Assembly (NCBI RefSeq): GCF_030824435.1
Contig: NZ_JAVBXS010000016.1
Span: forward strand, 62,001-126,000
Length of the DNA: 64,000 bases
Direction of reading: 5' to 3'
Origin: Rheinheimera sp.
GTDB taxonomy: Bacteria > Pseudomonadota > Gammaproteobacteria > Enterobacterales > Alteromonadaceae
Part shown: positions 1,775 through 7,054 of the stretch, piece after piece
Numbering within the stretch: position 1 is the stretch's first letter
How the letters are laid out: every line of letters starts with the position of its first letter
Program-made: the position numbers and the translations under genes
Notes under the pieces: generated by a model
Seen by the model: the letters and a program-made list of their open reading frames with translations, nothing else
Databases searched by the model: none
Told to the model about the DNA's origin: nothing

Positions 1775-2326
1775 TTAATGACCGGCAAAATCAATCAGGG
1801 CGTAAACCTTTAAATGTAATGCCGCCAGACGTTTGTCACCGCCAAGGTCGGGCAAATTCACGACAAAAGCCGCATCCGCCACTTCACCACCTAAACGGCG
1901 CACCAACTGTGTTGTGGCATCAATAGTACCACCAGTTGCCAATAAATCGTCAACTAACAATACTTTATCACCGGGAACTATAGCGTCGGTATGAATTTCC
2001 AGCGTGTCTTCACCGTACTCCAACTGATAACTCTGAGCAATACGTTCACGGGGCAATTTACCCGGTTTGCGTACCGGCACAAAAGCAACACCCAGCGCAT
2101 AAGCCAGCGGCGCACCAAAAATAAAACCGCGGGATTCGGTACCAATAATTTTGGTAAAACCCTGATTGGCATAATGTTGTTTAAAATTATCGATGACTGC
2201 AGCAAAAGCCTGAGGATCTTGCATCAGGCTGGTGACATCACGGAACAAAATGCCTGGTTTTGGATAATCCGGCACTGCTTTAATGACTTTTTCCAGCATC
2301 CGGGTAAATTCTGTAGGCTTATTCAT
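1775..2326 (-). CDS. apt: adenine phosphoribosyltransferase
   Basis: Converts adenine and PRPP to AMP in cytoplasmic purine salvage. Family signatures are [15 protein letters not shown] near the N-terminus, [23 protein letters not shown], and the PRPP-binding loop [12 protein letters not shown]. The ATG chosen gives 183 residues, the same length as the E. coli enzyme; an in-frame TTG 24 nt upstream would add eight unconserved residues and has no good ribosome site. It lies 59 bp upstream of dnaX in the conserved apt-dnaX order. A small GGCGC/GCGCC hairpin (1747-1761) sits between the two, without a convincing T-tract. Confidence 0.96.
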
Positions 2327-2378: not shown

Positions 2379-2402
2379 AAAAAAACCGCCTAACGGCGGT
2401 TT
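2379..2402 (-). terminator. Rho-independent terminator after the bufferin operon
   Basis: Stem AAACCGCC (2383-2390), loop TAAC, stem GGCGGTTT (2395-2402). On the minus strand the stem is followed by seven T's. It lies just after the 39-residue gene and before apt, so it separates the two minus-strand units. Confidence 0.85.
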
Positions 2403-2420
2403 TGCTGACTCAGGGTTCAC

Positions 2421-2540
2421 TTAACCGAGAATTTGCAGCCAGCGTAAAATTGGCACCAGACACAACAGGCCCACAAACACTGCGATAAAACCTAAAAATT
2501 GAGCCACACCAAAAGACTCTTTAAAATTCTCGTCTGCCAT
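2421..2540 (-). CDS. 39-residue single-pass membrane protein, unknown function
   Basis: A complete small gene from ATG to TAA. The sequence starts MADENFKESFGVAQ, continues as one hydrophobic helix (about residues 12-32, rich in Leu, Val, Ile and Phe), and ends with RWLQILG. GGGA lies about 8 nt upstream of the ATG. It starts 53 bp after the hvfC-like stop with no clear terminator in the gap, and a strong terminator follows it, so it is probably the last gene of the bufferin operon. Characterised operons of this type often carry a DoxX-like membrane protein (HvfD) here; this protein is far too short to be DoxX. I do not recognise a family. A single-helix accessory or inner-membrane anchor is inference only. 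Confidence 0.65.
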   Translation of the reverse strand: MADENFKESFGVAQFLGFIAVFVGLLCLVPILRWLQILG

Positions 2541-2593
2541 TGTGTTTTCCCACTGCAAAAGGGCTAAAAGAAAGGCCGATATGGTAATGAATT

Positions 2594-3349
2594 TTAGTCC
2601 GCTTGGAAAGCTCGGATCACGCCTTTTCGCGCAAATCCGCTGAATAATTCAGCGACTCCGGCCATAAGCTCTGTAGCAACTGCATCCGGCATTAATTGTT
2701 GCAAGCCGGACACCACAGAGCGCAGTGTTAAACCTGCTGAATTTGCCAGTATTTGCATGGCACTGGCACTGAGTTGATTCAGGCTGACAAATTTCACTTC
2801 ATCCTCAAGATTACGGTACATCAGTAAATAATAAGGACCTTCTGCCTTGGTTGGCTGAAATTCGCTGCTGATCTGCATCACCGGATATTGATAACAAAGC
2901 AGCAGCGCTAATGCAGAAAATTGCAGTGGTGTATCTGCTGTTATTTCTGCACAACAGGGTGTGCTTTCTGCTGTTGTGCTGGTGGCAAGGTAAAGCTCCA
3001 GCCATTCATAATGGGCCAGTTCTATGGCAAAAGCCGGATCTGTTGCAGTTAAAGCTTCTGTGCTGAACCATTGAAAAAAACCGGCTGCGATGTCGAGAAA
3101 ATAAGGGCTTTCCAACTGACTGTTGGCAAAAAACCGCCGTAGTTTTTGTTGCCACTGCGCTGCCGGATATAACGACTGCAATACCGGAAAAGCACTGTTA
3201 ACAAAATTCTGTACATTATTAAAAAACAACTCCTGATACACCGCCATTCTTGCTGCGTTCACTCCGGCAGGCGCAGTTTGCGCCGGATCCCGGATGGCGG
3301 CAGCAAACTGGTGTTGCAGCTGCTGAAATTCCTGTGTGGGTTTTGTCAT
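2594..3349 (-). CDS. hvfC: HvfC/DUF2063-type RiPP partner protein
   Basis: A 251-residue member of the DUF2063 (HvfC/BufC) family. It has an N-terminal helical domain (about residues 1-100; QQLQHQFAAAIRDP, YQELFFNNVQNFVNSAFPVL, YFLDIAAGFFQWF) and a C-terminal domain of about 130 residues that probably recognises the peptide. In characterised systems this partner forms a complex with the DUF692/MNIO enzyme and delivers the precursor leader. The start is fixed by a 4-nt ATGA overlap with the upstream enzyme gene, implying translational coupling; an earlier in-frame codon would add only unconserved residues. The gene symbol is by family resemblance. Confidence 0.85.
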   Translation of the reverse strand: MTKPTQEFQQLQHQFAAAIRDPAQTAPAGVNAARMAVYQELFFNNVQNFVNSAFPVLQSLYPAAQWQQKLRRFFANSQLESPYFLDIAAGFFQWFSTEALTATDPAFAIELAHYEWLELYLATSTTAESTPCCAEITADTPLQFSALALLLCYQYPVMQISSEFQPTKAEGPYYLLMYRNLEDEVKFVSLNQLSASAMQILANSAGLTLRSVVSGLQQLMPDAVATELMAGVAELFSGFARKGVIRAFQAD

Positions 3350-4164
3350 GCCATCACCCTTTGCTGACAAGCTTTAATTTGCCAAAGCTCGGCCTCCAGC
3401 ACCTGCATCGGCGGCAGATGAAAATCACGTTCCAGCAAAGTCGGAAATACACCATGACACTGGTATGCATGCGCCAGCAACTGCCAGACAGCTTTGCACA
3501 CAGCGGCGCCGTGGGTGTCTATCAATAAAGATTCATCCTGCTGGTAATGACCGGCAATATGACCATACACAATACGTTTCGACGGCAAAGCGGCAATAAA
3601 ATCACCGGCGTTATACCCGTGATTGATGCTGTTGACATACACATTGTTCACATCAAGCAACAAGGCGCAATCGGCTTGCTGCAGCACTTCGAGGGTAAAT
3701 TCCAGCTCCGACATTTCCTGGCCTGGCGCCGCATAATAAGACACGTTTTCCACCACCAGTTGCCGGCCTAAAATATCCTGCACTTGCCTGATACGCTCTG
3801 CGGTATAACGGGCAGCTGCCAGAGTAAAAGGAATAGGCATTAAATCGTACAGGTGACCGCCTGCCGAACAATAACTTAAATGTTCGCTATAAAGTTTAAT
3901 TTGATGTTGTTGCAAAAAGGCTTTCACAGCTTTGATAAAATCCAGATCCAGCGGATCCGGACTACCAAGCGACAAACTCAGGCCATGGCAGGCAAAACTA
4001 TAACGTTCGGTCAGGGCGCGAAACTGCTTCGCGAGCGCCCCGCCGAAAGGTAACCAGTTTTCCGGTGCAACTTCAAAAAAATCAATCACCTCTGCTTTTG
4101 CTGTTGTGACAGAGCCCAGCATTTCCCGCCTAAGCCCTAAACCAACACCGGAAACTGTGTTCAT
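3346..4164 (-). CDS. hvfB: DUF692/MNIO multinuclear iron oxidase, bufferin maturation enzyme
   Basis: A 272-residue TIM-barrel enzyme of the multinuclear non-heme iron-dependent oxidative (MNIO, formerly DUF692) family, which includes MbnB, HvfB and BufB. Hallmark motifs in order: GVGLGLR, FFEVAPENW, CHGLSLSLGS, LYSEHLSYCS, LVVENVSYY, LLLDVNNVYVN, YGHIAGH and DTHG. These carry the His/Asp/Glu metal ligands of the family. In the Haemophilus Hvf system the enzyme converts cysteines in EGKCG motifs to oxazolone/thioamide pairs that bind copper. Here the precursor gene lies directly upstream (1-nt gap) with EGKCG repeats, and the partner directly downstream, so the same reaction is the best inference. 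Confidence 0.92.
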   Translation of the reverse strand: MNTVSGVGLGLRREMLGSVTTAKAEVIDFFEVAPENWLPFGGALAKQFRALTERYSFACHGLSLSLGSPDPLDLDFIKAVKAFLQQHQIKLYSEHLSYCSAGGHLYDLMPIPFTLAAARYTAERIRQVQDILGRQLVVENVSYYAAPGQEMSELEFTLEVLQQADCALLLDVNNVYVNSINHGYNAGDFIAALPSKRIVYGHIAGHYQQDESLLIDTHGAAVCKAVWQLLAHAYQCHGVFPTLLERDFHLPPMQVLEAELWQIKACQQRVMA

Positions 4165-4165
4165 C

Positions 4166-4534
4166 TCAGTTCATACCACCACATTTACCTTCACCACACT
4201 TACCTTCACCACATTTACCTTCTTTGGCTTTATCTGTGGTGGCTGCTTTGTCTGTGGCTTTGTCGGCCATTTTATCGCCACCACATTTGCCTTCACCACA
4301 TTTGCCTTCTTTCGCTTTATCCGCTGTGGCAGCTTTGTCAGCGCCACATTTGGCTTCTTTGCTTTTATCGTCTGTTTTGGCCTTGTCGGCACCACAGGCT
4401 GCTTCAGCTGCACTTAACTGATAACCTGCTGCCAGTTCAGTGGCCTGAAAAGTAGTGGCACTGACCGCTGTTGTGATAGAACCCAATACTAAAACGCCTA
4501 CTGCAGAAACAACTTTTTTATTAAAAGTGCTCAT
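4166..4534 (-). CDS. hvfA: bufferin-type RiPP precursor with EGKCG repeats
   Basis: A 122-residue secreted precursor. It begins MSTFNKKVVSAVGVLVLG, a signal peptide with a likely cleavage after VSA near residue 26. A leader-like stretch TTFQATELAAGYQLSAAE follows, then a Lys/Ala/Asp-rich core with seven cysteines. Five lie in exact EGKCG units, grouped two and three, one is in EAKCG and one in ACGAD. EGKCG is the motif modified by MNIO enzymes to bind Cu(I). The ATG has AAGGAA 8 nt upstream; a longer frame reaching 11 codons further lacks that. It is first in the operon, and the enzyme starts one base after its stop. The product likely acts in the periplasm as a copper buffer. Confidence 0.9.
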   Translation of the reverse strand: MSTFNKKVVSAVGVLVLGSITTAVSATTFQATELAAGYQLSAAEAACGADKAKTDDKSKEAKCGADKAATADKAKEGKCGEGKCGGDKMADKATDKAATTDKAKEGKCGEGKCGEGKCGGMN

Positions 4535-4801
4535 GATGAAATTCCTTATTGCCTGTTGGTTAAACAAAGGGTGGAAGTGTCAACCTGCAAGGTCAGCCAC
4601 TGCAATGATAAAGACCCGGCAGTCTTCGTAAAAATTTCACTGCATAACAAGAAATATTTTATCTGCCATCTGGCAGGCCTGACACCAGATCCTTGCCGTT
4701 ATTATTGTGCTTTTTCAGTAAGTTTTGATCTGTATCAGAGCATAGTGTAACGCCAAAGCTCAGAATGCAACGATGATACATGCACCTGACAGAGGTTTGT
4801 T

Positions 4802-5185
4802 ATGCCACAGTCTTTGACACCCAGGCTCAGAGCCCAGCTACTGGAAGAAGTTCAGCAACAAAGAGCAGCTATATACCAATATCTGCAACATGGGCCACAG
4901 GCACAATACAGCGACTTATTGCTGAAACTGGAAAGTCATCCGCTCAGTCACTGGCCGGAACTACTAAGTCAATGGCTGACACCTGAGCTGGAAGCAAAAA
5001 CCAGGCGGCTTGAAGCCATTCAGGCAGCATTGAGCCAAATGGATATGGGACTTTATGGGTTGTGTTGCGACTGCGATAGCAGAATTGAGCGCCATTTGTT
5101 AGTGCAGGACCCGGCGCGCCAGCGTTGCGCTCATTGTGAACAGAGTTATCAGGACAAAGAACATCACCGCAACAGGCTGAACTGA
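4802..5185 (+). CDS. DksA/TraR-type C4 zinc-finger protein
   Basis: A 127-residue protein with a helical N-terminal half containing charged coiled-coil-like segments and a C-terminal zinc finger. The finger reads GLCCDCDSRIE then QRCAHCE, giving the CxxC-x17-CxxC pattern of the DksA/TraR family. Such proteins bind RNA polymerase through its secondary channel and modulate transcription initiation. It is shorter than DksA (about 151 residues) and longer than TraR. GAGG lies six bases before the ATG. It diverges from the bufferin precursor with about 270 bp between them, so a regulatory link is possible but unproven. Confidence 0.8.
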   Translation: MPQSLTPRLRAQLLEEVQQQRAAIYQYLQHGPQAQYSDLLLKLESHPLSHWPELLSQWLTPELEAKTRRLEAIQAALSQMDMGLYGLCCDCDSRIERHLLVQDPARQRCAHCEQSYQDKEHHRNRLN

Positions 5186-5233: not shown

Positions 5234-7054
5234 ATGAGTGGTGTTATGTCGTATCAGATCCAGTTGCAACAAGCCTTTGCCGCTTTGCAAAACGGCCAGC
5301 TGGCACAAGCTTTTCAAACAGCCCAGCTGGTGTTGCAAAACCAGCCGGAACAGCCGGATGCACTGCATTTGCTGGCCCTGGTGGCCAGACAACAACAAAA
5401 TCATGCAGCGGCGCTGATGTTCTTTAAGCGCAGCCTTCAAGCACAACCTAAACAAGCGGTGGTCTGGAGTAACTACGCCAACTTATTGCTGCTGATGCAA
5501 CATCTGGACGAAGCGGAACAGGCGTATCAGCAGGCGTTAACACTTGCAGCCGATTTTGCCGATTGCTGGGCCAACGCTGCCGCTTTGGCATTGCGTCAAC
5601 ACAACATTGTGCTGGCGCTGGAGCGCATTTCCACAGCATTAAAATTACAGCCAGCATCGGTGCGCTTCCTCAGTATTAAAGCCGACATTCTGAAAGCTTC
5701 AGCTCAGCTGCAACAAGCACTTGCTGTTTATGACGAAGCTCTGGCGATAGCACCGGATAATTTTTATTGCTGGCATAACAAAGGGGCGTTATTGCGCCAG
5801 CTTGATAAGCCGGCAGAAGCGTTAGCCTGTTTTGCCAACATAGTGACACAAGGTCAGCATAGTCCTGAATATCATTTTAACCGCGCTTGTGCAGCGGCAG
5901 ATTGTGGCGATTACTGCCTGGCAGAGTCCGAATGGCTGGCCGCACTGGCGTTAAAACCCGACTATATTGATGCCCATTTATCATTAAATAACTTTTATTG
6001 GGAGCATCAAAAAACTGCACAGTTTTTACAATCTTTCCAGAAAAGTCTGCAACAACAGCCCGATTCCGCCCCTTTGGTTTACCACTACGCCAGCCGGCTG
6101 ATTAACTCGCAACAACAGGAAGCTGCAGAACAAGTGTTACGCGAAGGTCTTCAGCGCCTGGGGCCTCATCCTGAGCTGCTACACGCCTTGGGTGCACAGT
6201 ACAGCAAAAAAGGTTTATTGGATCAGGCACAACAATTAACCCGTCAGGCCCTGGCACAACGGCCTGACCACAGCAGGTTCCGTATTGATCTGGCCAATTA
6301 TCTGATGCAACAAGGTGACTATCAGCAAGCCTTAACAGAACTTGCCAAAGCCCAGCAGACAGAAGCGGATAATCAGGAGATCTGGGCTTATCAGGGCACG
6401 TGCTGGCGTCTGCTGGAGGACCCAAGGCATCATTGGCTTAATGATTACCAGCGTTTGGTACAGTCTTTTTTATTACCAGCTCCCCAGGGTTATGATAACC
6501 GCGAGCATTTTTTATCTGAACTGAATACTGCTGTACGGGCACTGCATACCAGCAGGCAACAACCTTTGGATCAGAGTGTGCGCGGCGGGACTCAAACCAT
6601 AGGCCGCTTATTGGCGGAACCGGCACGCGCCATTCAGGATTTCCGCCTGCTGCTGGAGCAACAGATCAGGCAGTACCTGATGACACTGCCCAAAGATAAC
6701 ACTCACCCACTGTTGCGGCGTAATCAACAACAATTTCAAATTGTTGGCAGCTGGTCGGTGCGACTGCAACAAGCTGGGTATCACAGCAATCATGTACATC
6801 CGCAAGGTTGGTTATCAGCCTGTACCTATCTTGAAGTTCCCCCGGCTATCACGGCAAAAGATGAACAACGTCAGGGCTGGTTAAAACTGGGTGAAACCTG
6901 CCTGGGCCTGGGTGCCAGAGAGCAGGTTGCCAGAGCTATCTGCCCGGAACCCGGACTTGTGGTGTTATTTCCAAGTTACACCTGGCACGGTACTTATCCT
7001 TTTAGTGGCGATGGCAGCAGAATGACAGCACCTTGTGATATTTCACCAGGCTAA
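5234..7054 (+). CDS. TPR protein with C-terminal 2OG-Fe(II) oxygenase domain
   Basis: A large cytoplasmic-looking protein (606 residues from this ATG, 602 from a second ATG at 5246, which has the better GAG ribosome site). Residues about 10-380 are tandem tetratricopeptide repeats with repeated A-x-Y/F-x-x-A-L patterns. The C-terminal 200 residues match the 2OG-FeII_Oxy_5 type: an HVH pair at 520-522 in NHVHPQGWLSA, a distal WHGTYPF histidine (585) and an Arg about ten residues later for 2-oxoglutarate. The substrate is unknown. A terminator follows at once, and the next gene is a convergent TonB-dependent receptor; similar pairs are common in this group. Confidence 0.8.
   Translation: MSGVMSYQIQLQQAFAALQNGQLAQAFQTAQLVLQNQPEQPDALHLLALVARQQQNHAAALMFFKRSLQAQPKQAVVWSNYANLLLLMQHLDEAEQAYQQALTLAADFADCWANAAALALRQHNIVLALERISTALKLQPASVRFLSIKADILKASAQLQQALAVYDEALAIAPDNFYCWHNKGALLRQLDKPAEALACFANIVTQGQHSPEYHFNRACAAADCGDYCLAESEWLAALALKPDYIDAHLSLNNFYWEHQKTAQFLQSFQKSLQQQPDSAPLVYHYASRLINSQQQEAAEQVLREGLQRLGPHPELLHALGAQYSKKGLLDQAQQLTRQALAQRPDHSRFRIDLANYLMQQGDYQQALTELAKAQQTEADNQEIWAYQGTCWRLLEDPRHHWLNDYQRLVQSFLLPAPQGYDNREHFLSELNTAVRALHTSRQQPLDQSVRGGTQTIGRLLAEPARAIQDFRLLLEQQIRQYLMTLPKDNTHPLLRRNQQQFQIVGSWSVRLQQAGYHSNHVHPQGWLSACTYLEVPPAITAKDEQRQGWLKLGETCLGLGAREQVARAICPEPGLVVLFPSYTWHGTYPFSGDGSRMTAPCDISPG

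Follow-up and report, generated by a model that had tools for sequence, protein, structure and literature searches.

Does a cassette for a modified, probably copper-linked peptide that ends in a gene for a tiny membrane protein, with no DoxX-like gene behind it, point to a new component of the peptide pathway, or do two ordinary neighbours happen to meet there? The question arises from a locus in the window analysed here, a stretch of 64,000 nucleotides from a Rheinheimera-type bacterium, for which an earlier note had described a bufferin-type copper RiPP operon closed by a 39-residue single-helix protein (hereafter SMP). All four genes, hvfA, hvfB, hvfC and SMP, lie on the minus strand between 4534 and 2421, and the features in order of transcription are:

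4612 to 4639, minus strand: TGAAAT-N17-GGTCT, candidate promoter motif of the ECF-sigma type, 105 nt before the hvfA start.
4166 to 4534, minus strand: hvfA, precursor of 122 aa (ORF; NF050137; 22/22 genus loci).
3346 to 4164, minus strand: hvfB, MNIO (DUF692) maturase of 272 aa (NF003818, PF05114, PDB 3bww).
2594 to 3349, minus strand: hvfC, DUF2063/RRE partner of 251 aa (NF050145, PF09836, PF22106, PDB 3dee).
2421 to 2540, minus strand: SMP, single-helix protein of 39 aa (conservation, purifying selection, hydropathy, apt linkage).
2379 to 2404, minus strand: intrinsic terminator between SMP and apt (fold against shuffles; 22/22 genus loci).
1775 to 2326, minus strand: apt, adenine phosphoribosyltransferase (NF002632, 294.8 bits, cut-off 243).

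The tight coupling described earlier is real by the ORF coordinates: a 1-nt gap separates hvfA from hvfB, whose ATG begins at 4164, and the hvfB stop (3348-3346) overlaps the hvfC ATG (3349-3347) as ATGA. hvfC ends at 2594, the SMP ORF starts 53 nt beyond, and apt is the next gene after the SMP terminator. On the other side, divergent from hvfA, positions 4802-5185 encode a DksA/TraR-like protein of 127 aa, which at 17.4 bits stays under its Pfam cut-off of 24.9 and has relatives near hvf in some other genera.

HvfA has seven cysteines, read from the sequence as five EGKCG, one EAKCG and one AACG unit, and by inspection its N-terminus holds a signal-peptide-like stretch. It matches the KCGExKCG domain NF050137 with 43 bits (NCBIfam cut-off 19.5) and stays below the narrower HvfA equivalog NF050188 (26 bits vs a cut-off of 95); neither the DUF2282 precursor domain nor any other Pfam family was found in it at E up to 1. 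HvfB reaches 425 bits with NF003818 (NCBIfam cut-off 360) and 343.6 bits with PF05114 (Pfam), matches PDB 3bww (E 2.3e-66) and MbnB 7dz9 (E 9e-10), and falls short of the bufferin BufB model NF050167 (264.6 bits vs a cut-off of 310). HvfC scores 248.5 bits with NF050145 (NCBIfam cut-off 142), lies above the cut-offs of PF09836 and PF22106, and resembles PDB 3dee (E 1.1e-13). SMP, hvfB, hvfC and apt all occur in 22/22 genus genomes and hvfA could be read at each of the 22 loci, which together with the NCBIfam and Pfam cut-offs bears out the proposed trio of EGKCG precursor, DUF692/MNIO enzyme and DUF2063 partner.

Because HvfB and HvfC pass their own cut-offs and the BufB cut-off is missed, we assign the cassette to the HvfABC (oxazolin/captophorin) type rather than to the Buf1/Buf2 bufferins. 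The earlier label is partly supported: the class, an MNIO and DUF2063 RiPP with a probable copper link, is right, but the bufferin name is imprecise, given the missed BufB cut-off and the lack of DUF2282. PMC12452194 splits Buf1/Buf2 bufferins from Buf_EGKCG/oxazolins, and by that division the window cassette belongs, on its predicted proteins, with the latter. EGKCG products are reported to carry 5-thiooxazoles, with the name captophorins proposed for them (PMC13097082), a Microbulbifer relative is reported to lose 4 H per Cys (PMC12538549), and the same two reports describe relatives that bind copper. Judged by its sequence, the cassette is an ordinary hvfABC member of this known RiPP class.

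Some variants of the cassette were seen among related loci. A second, divergent cassette in the same genus (L109, G013 contig 1) has a precursor with EGKCG units and an EF-hand-like tail, for which the EF-hand fusions described in PMC12452194 offer a comparison, and an HvfX match lies convergent to it. Lone hvfA-like precursor genes with KCG repeats and an ECF-type motif stand before SMP-apt at L150:2342-2752 and L156:3298-3690, with neither hvfB nor hvfC within the 6.1-kb locus; the genome of L156 (G033) is among the listed genomes without an HvfC match. At L134 a transposase-like ORF (5357-6163, by eye) lies upstream of hvfB and hvfA is not recognised, so loss of the precursor is possible there.

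The 39-residue gene was said to close the operon before a terminator, and both the gene and the terminator stand up to analysis. SMP is coding and evolves under purifying selection, with pN < pS in 270/270 pairs with pS > 0.1 (24 sequences; median pS 0.72, median pN 0.24), and its hydropathy peaks at 2.49 over residues 14-32. The hairpin and T-run at 2404-2379 fold at -16.9 kcal/mol (z -3.77), as good as which none of 200 shuffles was, and the same structure is legible after SMP and before apt in 22/22 genus loci; the terminator scan by itself is uninformative, with 6 found vs 4.9 expected in shuffles. Between hvfC and SMP the fold is no better than in shuffles (z +0.63). With no terminator-like fold in that interval and one after SMP, the hvf transcript may well extend through SMP in the window; given the terminator between SMP and apt across the genus, transcription of SMP there probably starts either ahead of hvf or at a separate SMP promoter. 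At L139, L140, L144 and L145, which are without hvf, a terminator also follows SMP, which at these loci therefore forms a separate unit.

Throughout the family, the gene neighbourhoods link SMP with apt and not with the RiPP genes. The HvfC cut-off was passed in 119/246 family genomes, and from their matches we picked 80 hvfC loci (L057-L136; four from the genus of the window), alongside 20 SMP loci chosen for their distance from hvfC and not for apt. Among the hvfC loci, SMP and then apt follow in 65/80, and one more has SMP and a response-regulator-like gene with apt not found, so that SMP adjoins hvfC in 66/80 overall; apt adjoins without SMP in 5/80, hvfX and a sigma gene follow in 1/80, and SMP, apt and hvfX/sigma are all absent in 8/80. 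SMP lies upstream of apt in 20/20 of the distant loci, with hvfB and hvfC undetected in them and a response-regulator-like gene between SMP and apt in four. In some genera (L113, L136, L150-L153) such a gene was also noted to separate SMP from apt, or from dnaX. SMP was further found in 15 of the 20 genomes listed from the 78 without an HvfC match, and its stop lies 35 nt or less from apt in 30/86 SMP loci, distances that are lower bounds as the most upstream apt ATG was taken. At one site in genus g73 the order is dksA-like/SMP/apt in L137, L138 and L141 and dksA-like/hvfABC/SMP/apt in L105.

SMP is therefore neither limited to hvfABC nor found mainly with it (20/20 distant loci before apt; 15 of the 20 listed HvfC-less genomes), although SMP and hvfC often travel together (66/80), a counterpoint to a tie with apt only. 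SMP looks like an old neighbour of apt rather than a part of the cassette, and is probably not a RiPP component. Since hvfABC can be present or absent in front of SMP-apt within one genus, the most likely role of SMP is that of a passenger on the transcript of hvf, one that would be dispensable for the peptide.

What SMP does beside apt invites a further reading, in which SMP represents an unnamed family of single-pass membrane proteins of about 40 residues, standing partners of apt in the genomes of the family to which Rheinheimera belongs, which would anchor Apt at the membrane or regulate it there, hvfABC being a removable cassette in front. No NCBIfam family is above cut-off for the window protein; Pfam, searched with it and with six of its relatives, likewise gives none (best E 0.32 and 0.042), and a profile built from family members matches 204/246 genomes of the family. 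In the class it matches 5/369 genomes: three home-family genomes, one spurious match inside a 316-aa frame, and G657 outside the family (L188/L221; E 4.2e-8, nearly full length). A tblastn search of the 6.1 kb surrounding the G657 copy, with queries from Rheinheimera, detected neither apt nor dnaX, so this single distant match does not show apt linkage. The linkage and the missing Pfam and NCBIfam models are observed, and the function is a guess, so we put the tethering of Apt forward as a tentative idea that may well prove wrong.

No DoxX gene was found after the cassette within the window, as the earlier note had stated, but this is less of a peculiarity than it seemed. HvfX in the operon is usual, not universal, for HvfABC cassettes; mmrABC of Microbulbifer is a DoxX-less cassette in print (PMC12538549), and core genes are said in PMC12452194 to occur in “various combinations”. 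The genome of the window itself holds three DoxX-family matches, among them a full-score HvfX on contig 63 (214.8 bits, cut-off 80): HvfX is displaced in this genome, not lost. In this stretch outside the window (L180:1515-5259, G000 contig 63), hvfX is convergent with genes for a P-ATPase of the copper type and for a MerR protein that resembles CueR. The ATPase passes the copper subfamily model TIGR01511 (527.7 bits, cut-off 397) and stays below the CopA equivalog, and the best model for the MerR protein, CueR, is just missed (137.8 bits vs a cut-off of 147.4).

HvfX is above cut-off in 18/22 genus genomes, in nine of which it shares a contig with SMP and is found 6.3-7.2 kb downstream of it, and an ECF sigma gene and a DUF3379 gene follow it in 12 of the 18 loci. 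The remaining four genomes, which have hvfABC and SMP, show only weak HvfX matches; there HvfX may be expendable or may have escaped detection; in two of these, G017 and G019, SMP is identical to that of the window. We set aside SMP as a substitute for HvfX, given that the genome has an HvfX of its own and that SMP accompanies apt without hvf. A neighbour gene linked to apt and an hvfX that has moved elsewhere account better for the two supposed peculiarities of the locus.

Regulation was approached through the motif before hvfA. Its strict form GAAATTT-N15-GGTCT is found upstream of hvfA in 18/22 genus loci, and the remaining four have a relaxed form. In the family, 57/75 hvfA genes carry TGAAA[TG]-N16..18-GGTCT in their 450-nt start region and 18/75 lack it, a count that leaves out 5/80 family loci where hvfA was unrecognised by the repeat rule. 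Elsewhere the motif gave one match in 1,102,348 strand-bases, and the 64-kb window has exactly one; the relaxed pattern also gave stray matches (e.g. L160, L170, L070). A weight matrix derived from the genus sites scored 48/74 family loci higher than any of 40 shuffles and the other 26 no higher, with the hvfA start misplaced in L160 and L167 and L110 entered twice. The exact motif also precedes the lone hvfX in 3/18 genus hvfX loci (L190, L192, L205), and upstream of hvfX in the genome of the window it appears only with one mismatch. Genome-wide the pattern is not enriched (4 matches vs 10 in the reversed control), so that its weight comes from position. We regard the hvfA motif as a candidate ECF-type promoter, in line with the ECF control published for such operons in relatives, by RpoE2 in H. 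influenzae (PMC7907618), sigma-E in Neisseria (PMC2893595) and sigma-F in Caulobacter (PMC3511200).

A candidate for the sigma factor that reads this site is encoded on contig 98 of the same genome (L225:1480-2755, G000), by an ECF sigma gene of NF009170 (252.9 bits, cut-off 197). It is followed by a gene called DUF3379-like for its resemblance to a DUF3379 protein, and the same pair follows hvfX in 12/18 genus loci and hvfABC-hvfX in L101. The motif was not found before this sigma gene, and the 12 loci likewise lack it ahead of hvfX; with no genome-wide enrichment the NF009170 sigma as driver of the hvfA promoter stays a guess. A strict CueR box ACCTT-N8..10-AAGGT is absent from L180, where matches with two mismatches exist and none is just upstream of hvfX, and upstream of hvfA there is none with up to two mismatches. 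An FNR-like palindrome, TTGAT-N4-ATCAG, lies at 4725-4738 of the window between hvfA and the divergent dksA-like gene, which it may serve; it is found 160 nt or less upstream of the promoter site in 14/22 genus loci, and otherwise at one site in another genus (L106).

Taken together, these observations lead us to a reading that we hold with good confidence: the locus is an hvfABC cassette of a Rheinheimera-type bacterium for a thiooxazole-bearing, probably Cu(I)-binding peptide, with SMP as the neighbour of apt and a passenger, and HvfX encoded elsewhere. An ECF sigma factor would read TGAAAT-N17-GGTCT under copper or oxidative envelope stress; by analogy with characterised relatives, HvfC would bind the HvfA leader and HvfB would oxidise the Lys-Cys units of HvfA to 5-thiooxazoles, with a loss of 4 H per Cys. 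Sec would then export the product, which could hold copper in the periplasm, and HvfX, encoded beside the copper ATPase and CueR-like genes, may have its place of action at the membrane. The neighbourhoods show SMP as the constant gene upstream of apt, and in one genus hvfABC can be present or absent in front of the pair.

That the cassette primarily answers oxidative (HOCl/peroxide) envelope stress, with copper secondary, we think rather improbable: the H. influenzae cluster is reported as RpoE2-dependent and HOCl-induced (PMC7907618), the Neisseria rpoE operon as co-regulated with msrA/msrB (PMC2893595), and an ECF-type promoter precedes hvfA in the window, but relatives bind copper (PMC13097082, PMC12538549), the Legionella GIG promoter is described as responsive to Cu and Au (PMC5413113), and hvfX in the genome of the window adjoins a copper ATPase. 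Very unlikely is the reading implied by the earlier note, in which SMP is a true fourth component that anchors HvfBC at the membrane, aids export or replaces HvfX; its place directly 3' of hvfC in most hvfC loci, the genus terminator after and not before it, and the four genomes with hvfABC and SMP and no HvfX above cut-off would fit, but SMP is kept by apt where hvfB and hvfC are absent, hvfABC lies out of its reach in eight loci and by apt without it in five, and HvfX is present in most genus genomes, that of the window included.

The preferred reading, a known cassette in front of an apt neighbour, thus replaces the claim that a new, fourth RiPP gene takes the place of DoxX with a simpler account. 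It indicates that hvfX need not be coupled to hvfABC and can be found next to genes for copper export, offers a compact promoter signature as a handle for finding the sigma factor behind such cassettes, and brings to light a widespread membrane microprotein beside apt that lacks a Pfam or NCBIfam model. Rheinheimera is not mentioned among the matches listed in a general literature search.

Among known systems, hvfABCX of Haemophilus influenzae (oxazolin, captophorin class) shares the signal-peptide EGKCG precursor, the HvfB-type MNIO and the HvfC-type partner (PMC13419390), whereas here hvfX is non-adjacent, the score of the strict HvfA equivalog is not reached and an SMP gene follows. mmrABC of Microbulbifer, which makes bulbicupramide, is likewise a three-gene EGKCG cassette without a DoxX partner (PMC12538549), but has other neighbours. 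The Buf1/Buf2 bufferins of Caulobacter and others resemble it in their MNIO and DUF2063 partner and signal-peptide precursor, with ECF control in Caulobacter (PMC3511200), and differ in that the window precursor lacks DUF2282 and the window maturase is below the BufB cut-off. The Neisseria rpoE operon NMB2140-2145, with a DoxX-like gene, rpoE and the anti-sigma gene mseR, has an ECF-type promoter with a similar GTCTA core in the -10 element and belongs to a very small regulon, although its -35 element is GTMAGBWTT with a 12-13 nt spacer, against TGAAAT and a longer spacer in the window (PMC2893595). This operon also holds its own rpoE, whereas the window cassette is without a sigma gene. Its gonococcal counterpart is the source of gonophorin and of the partner protein in PDB 3dee.
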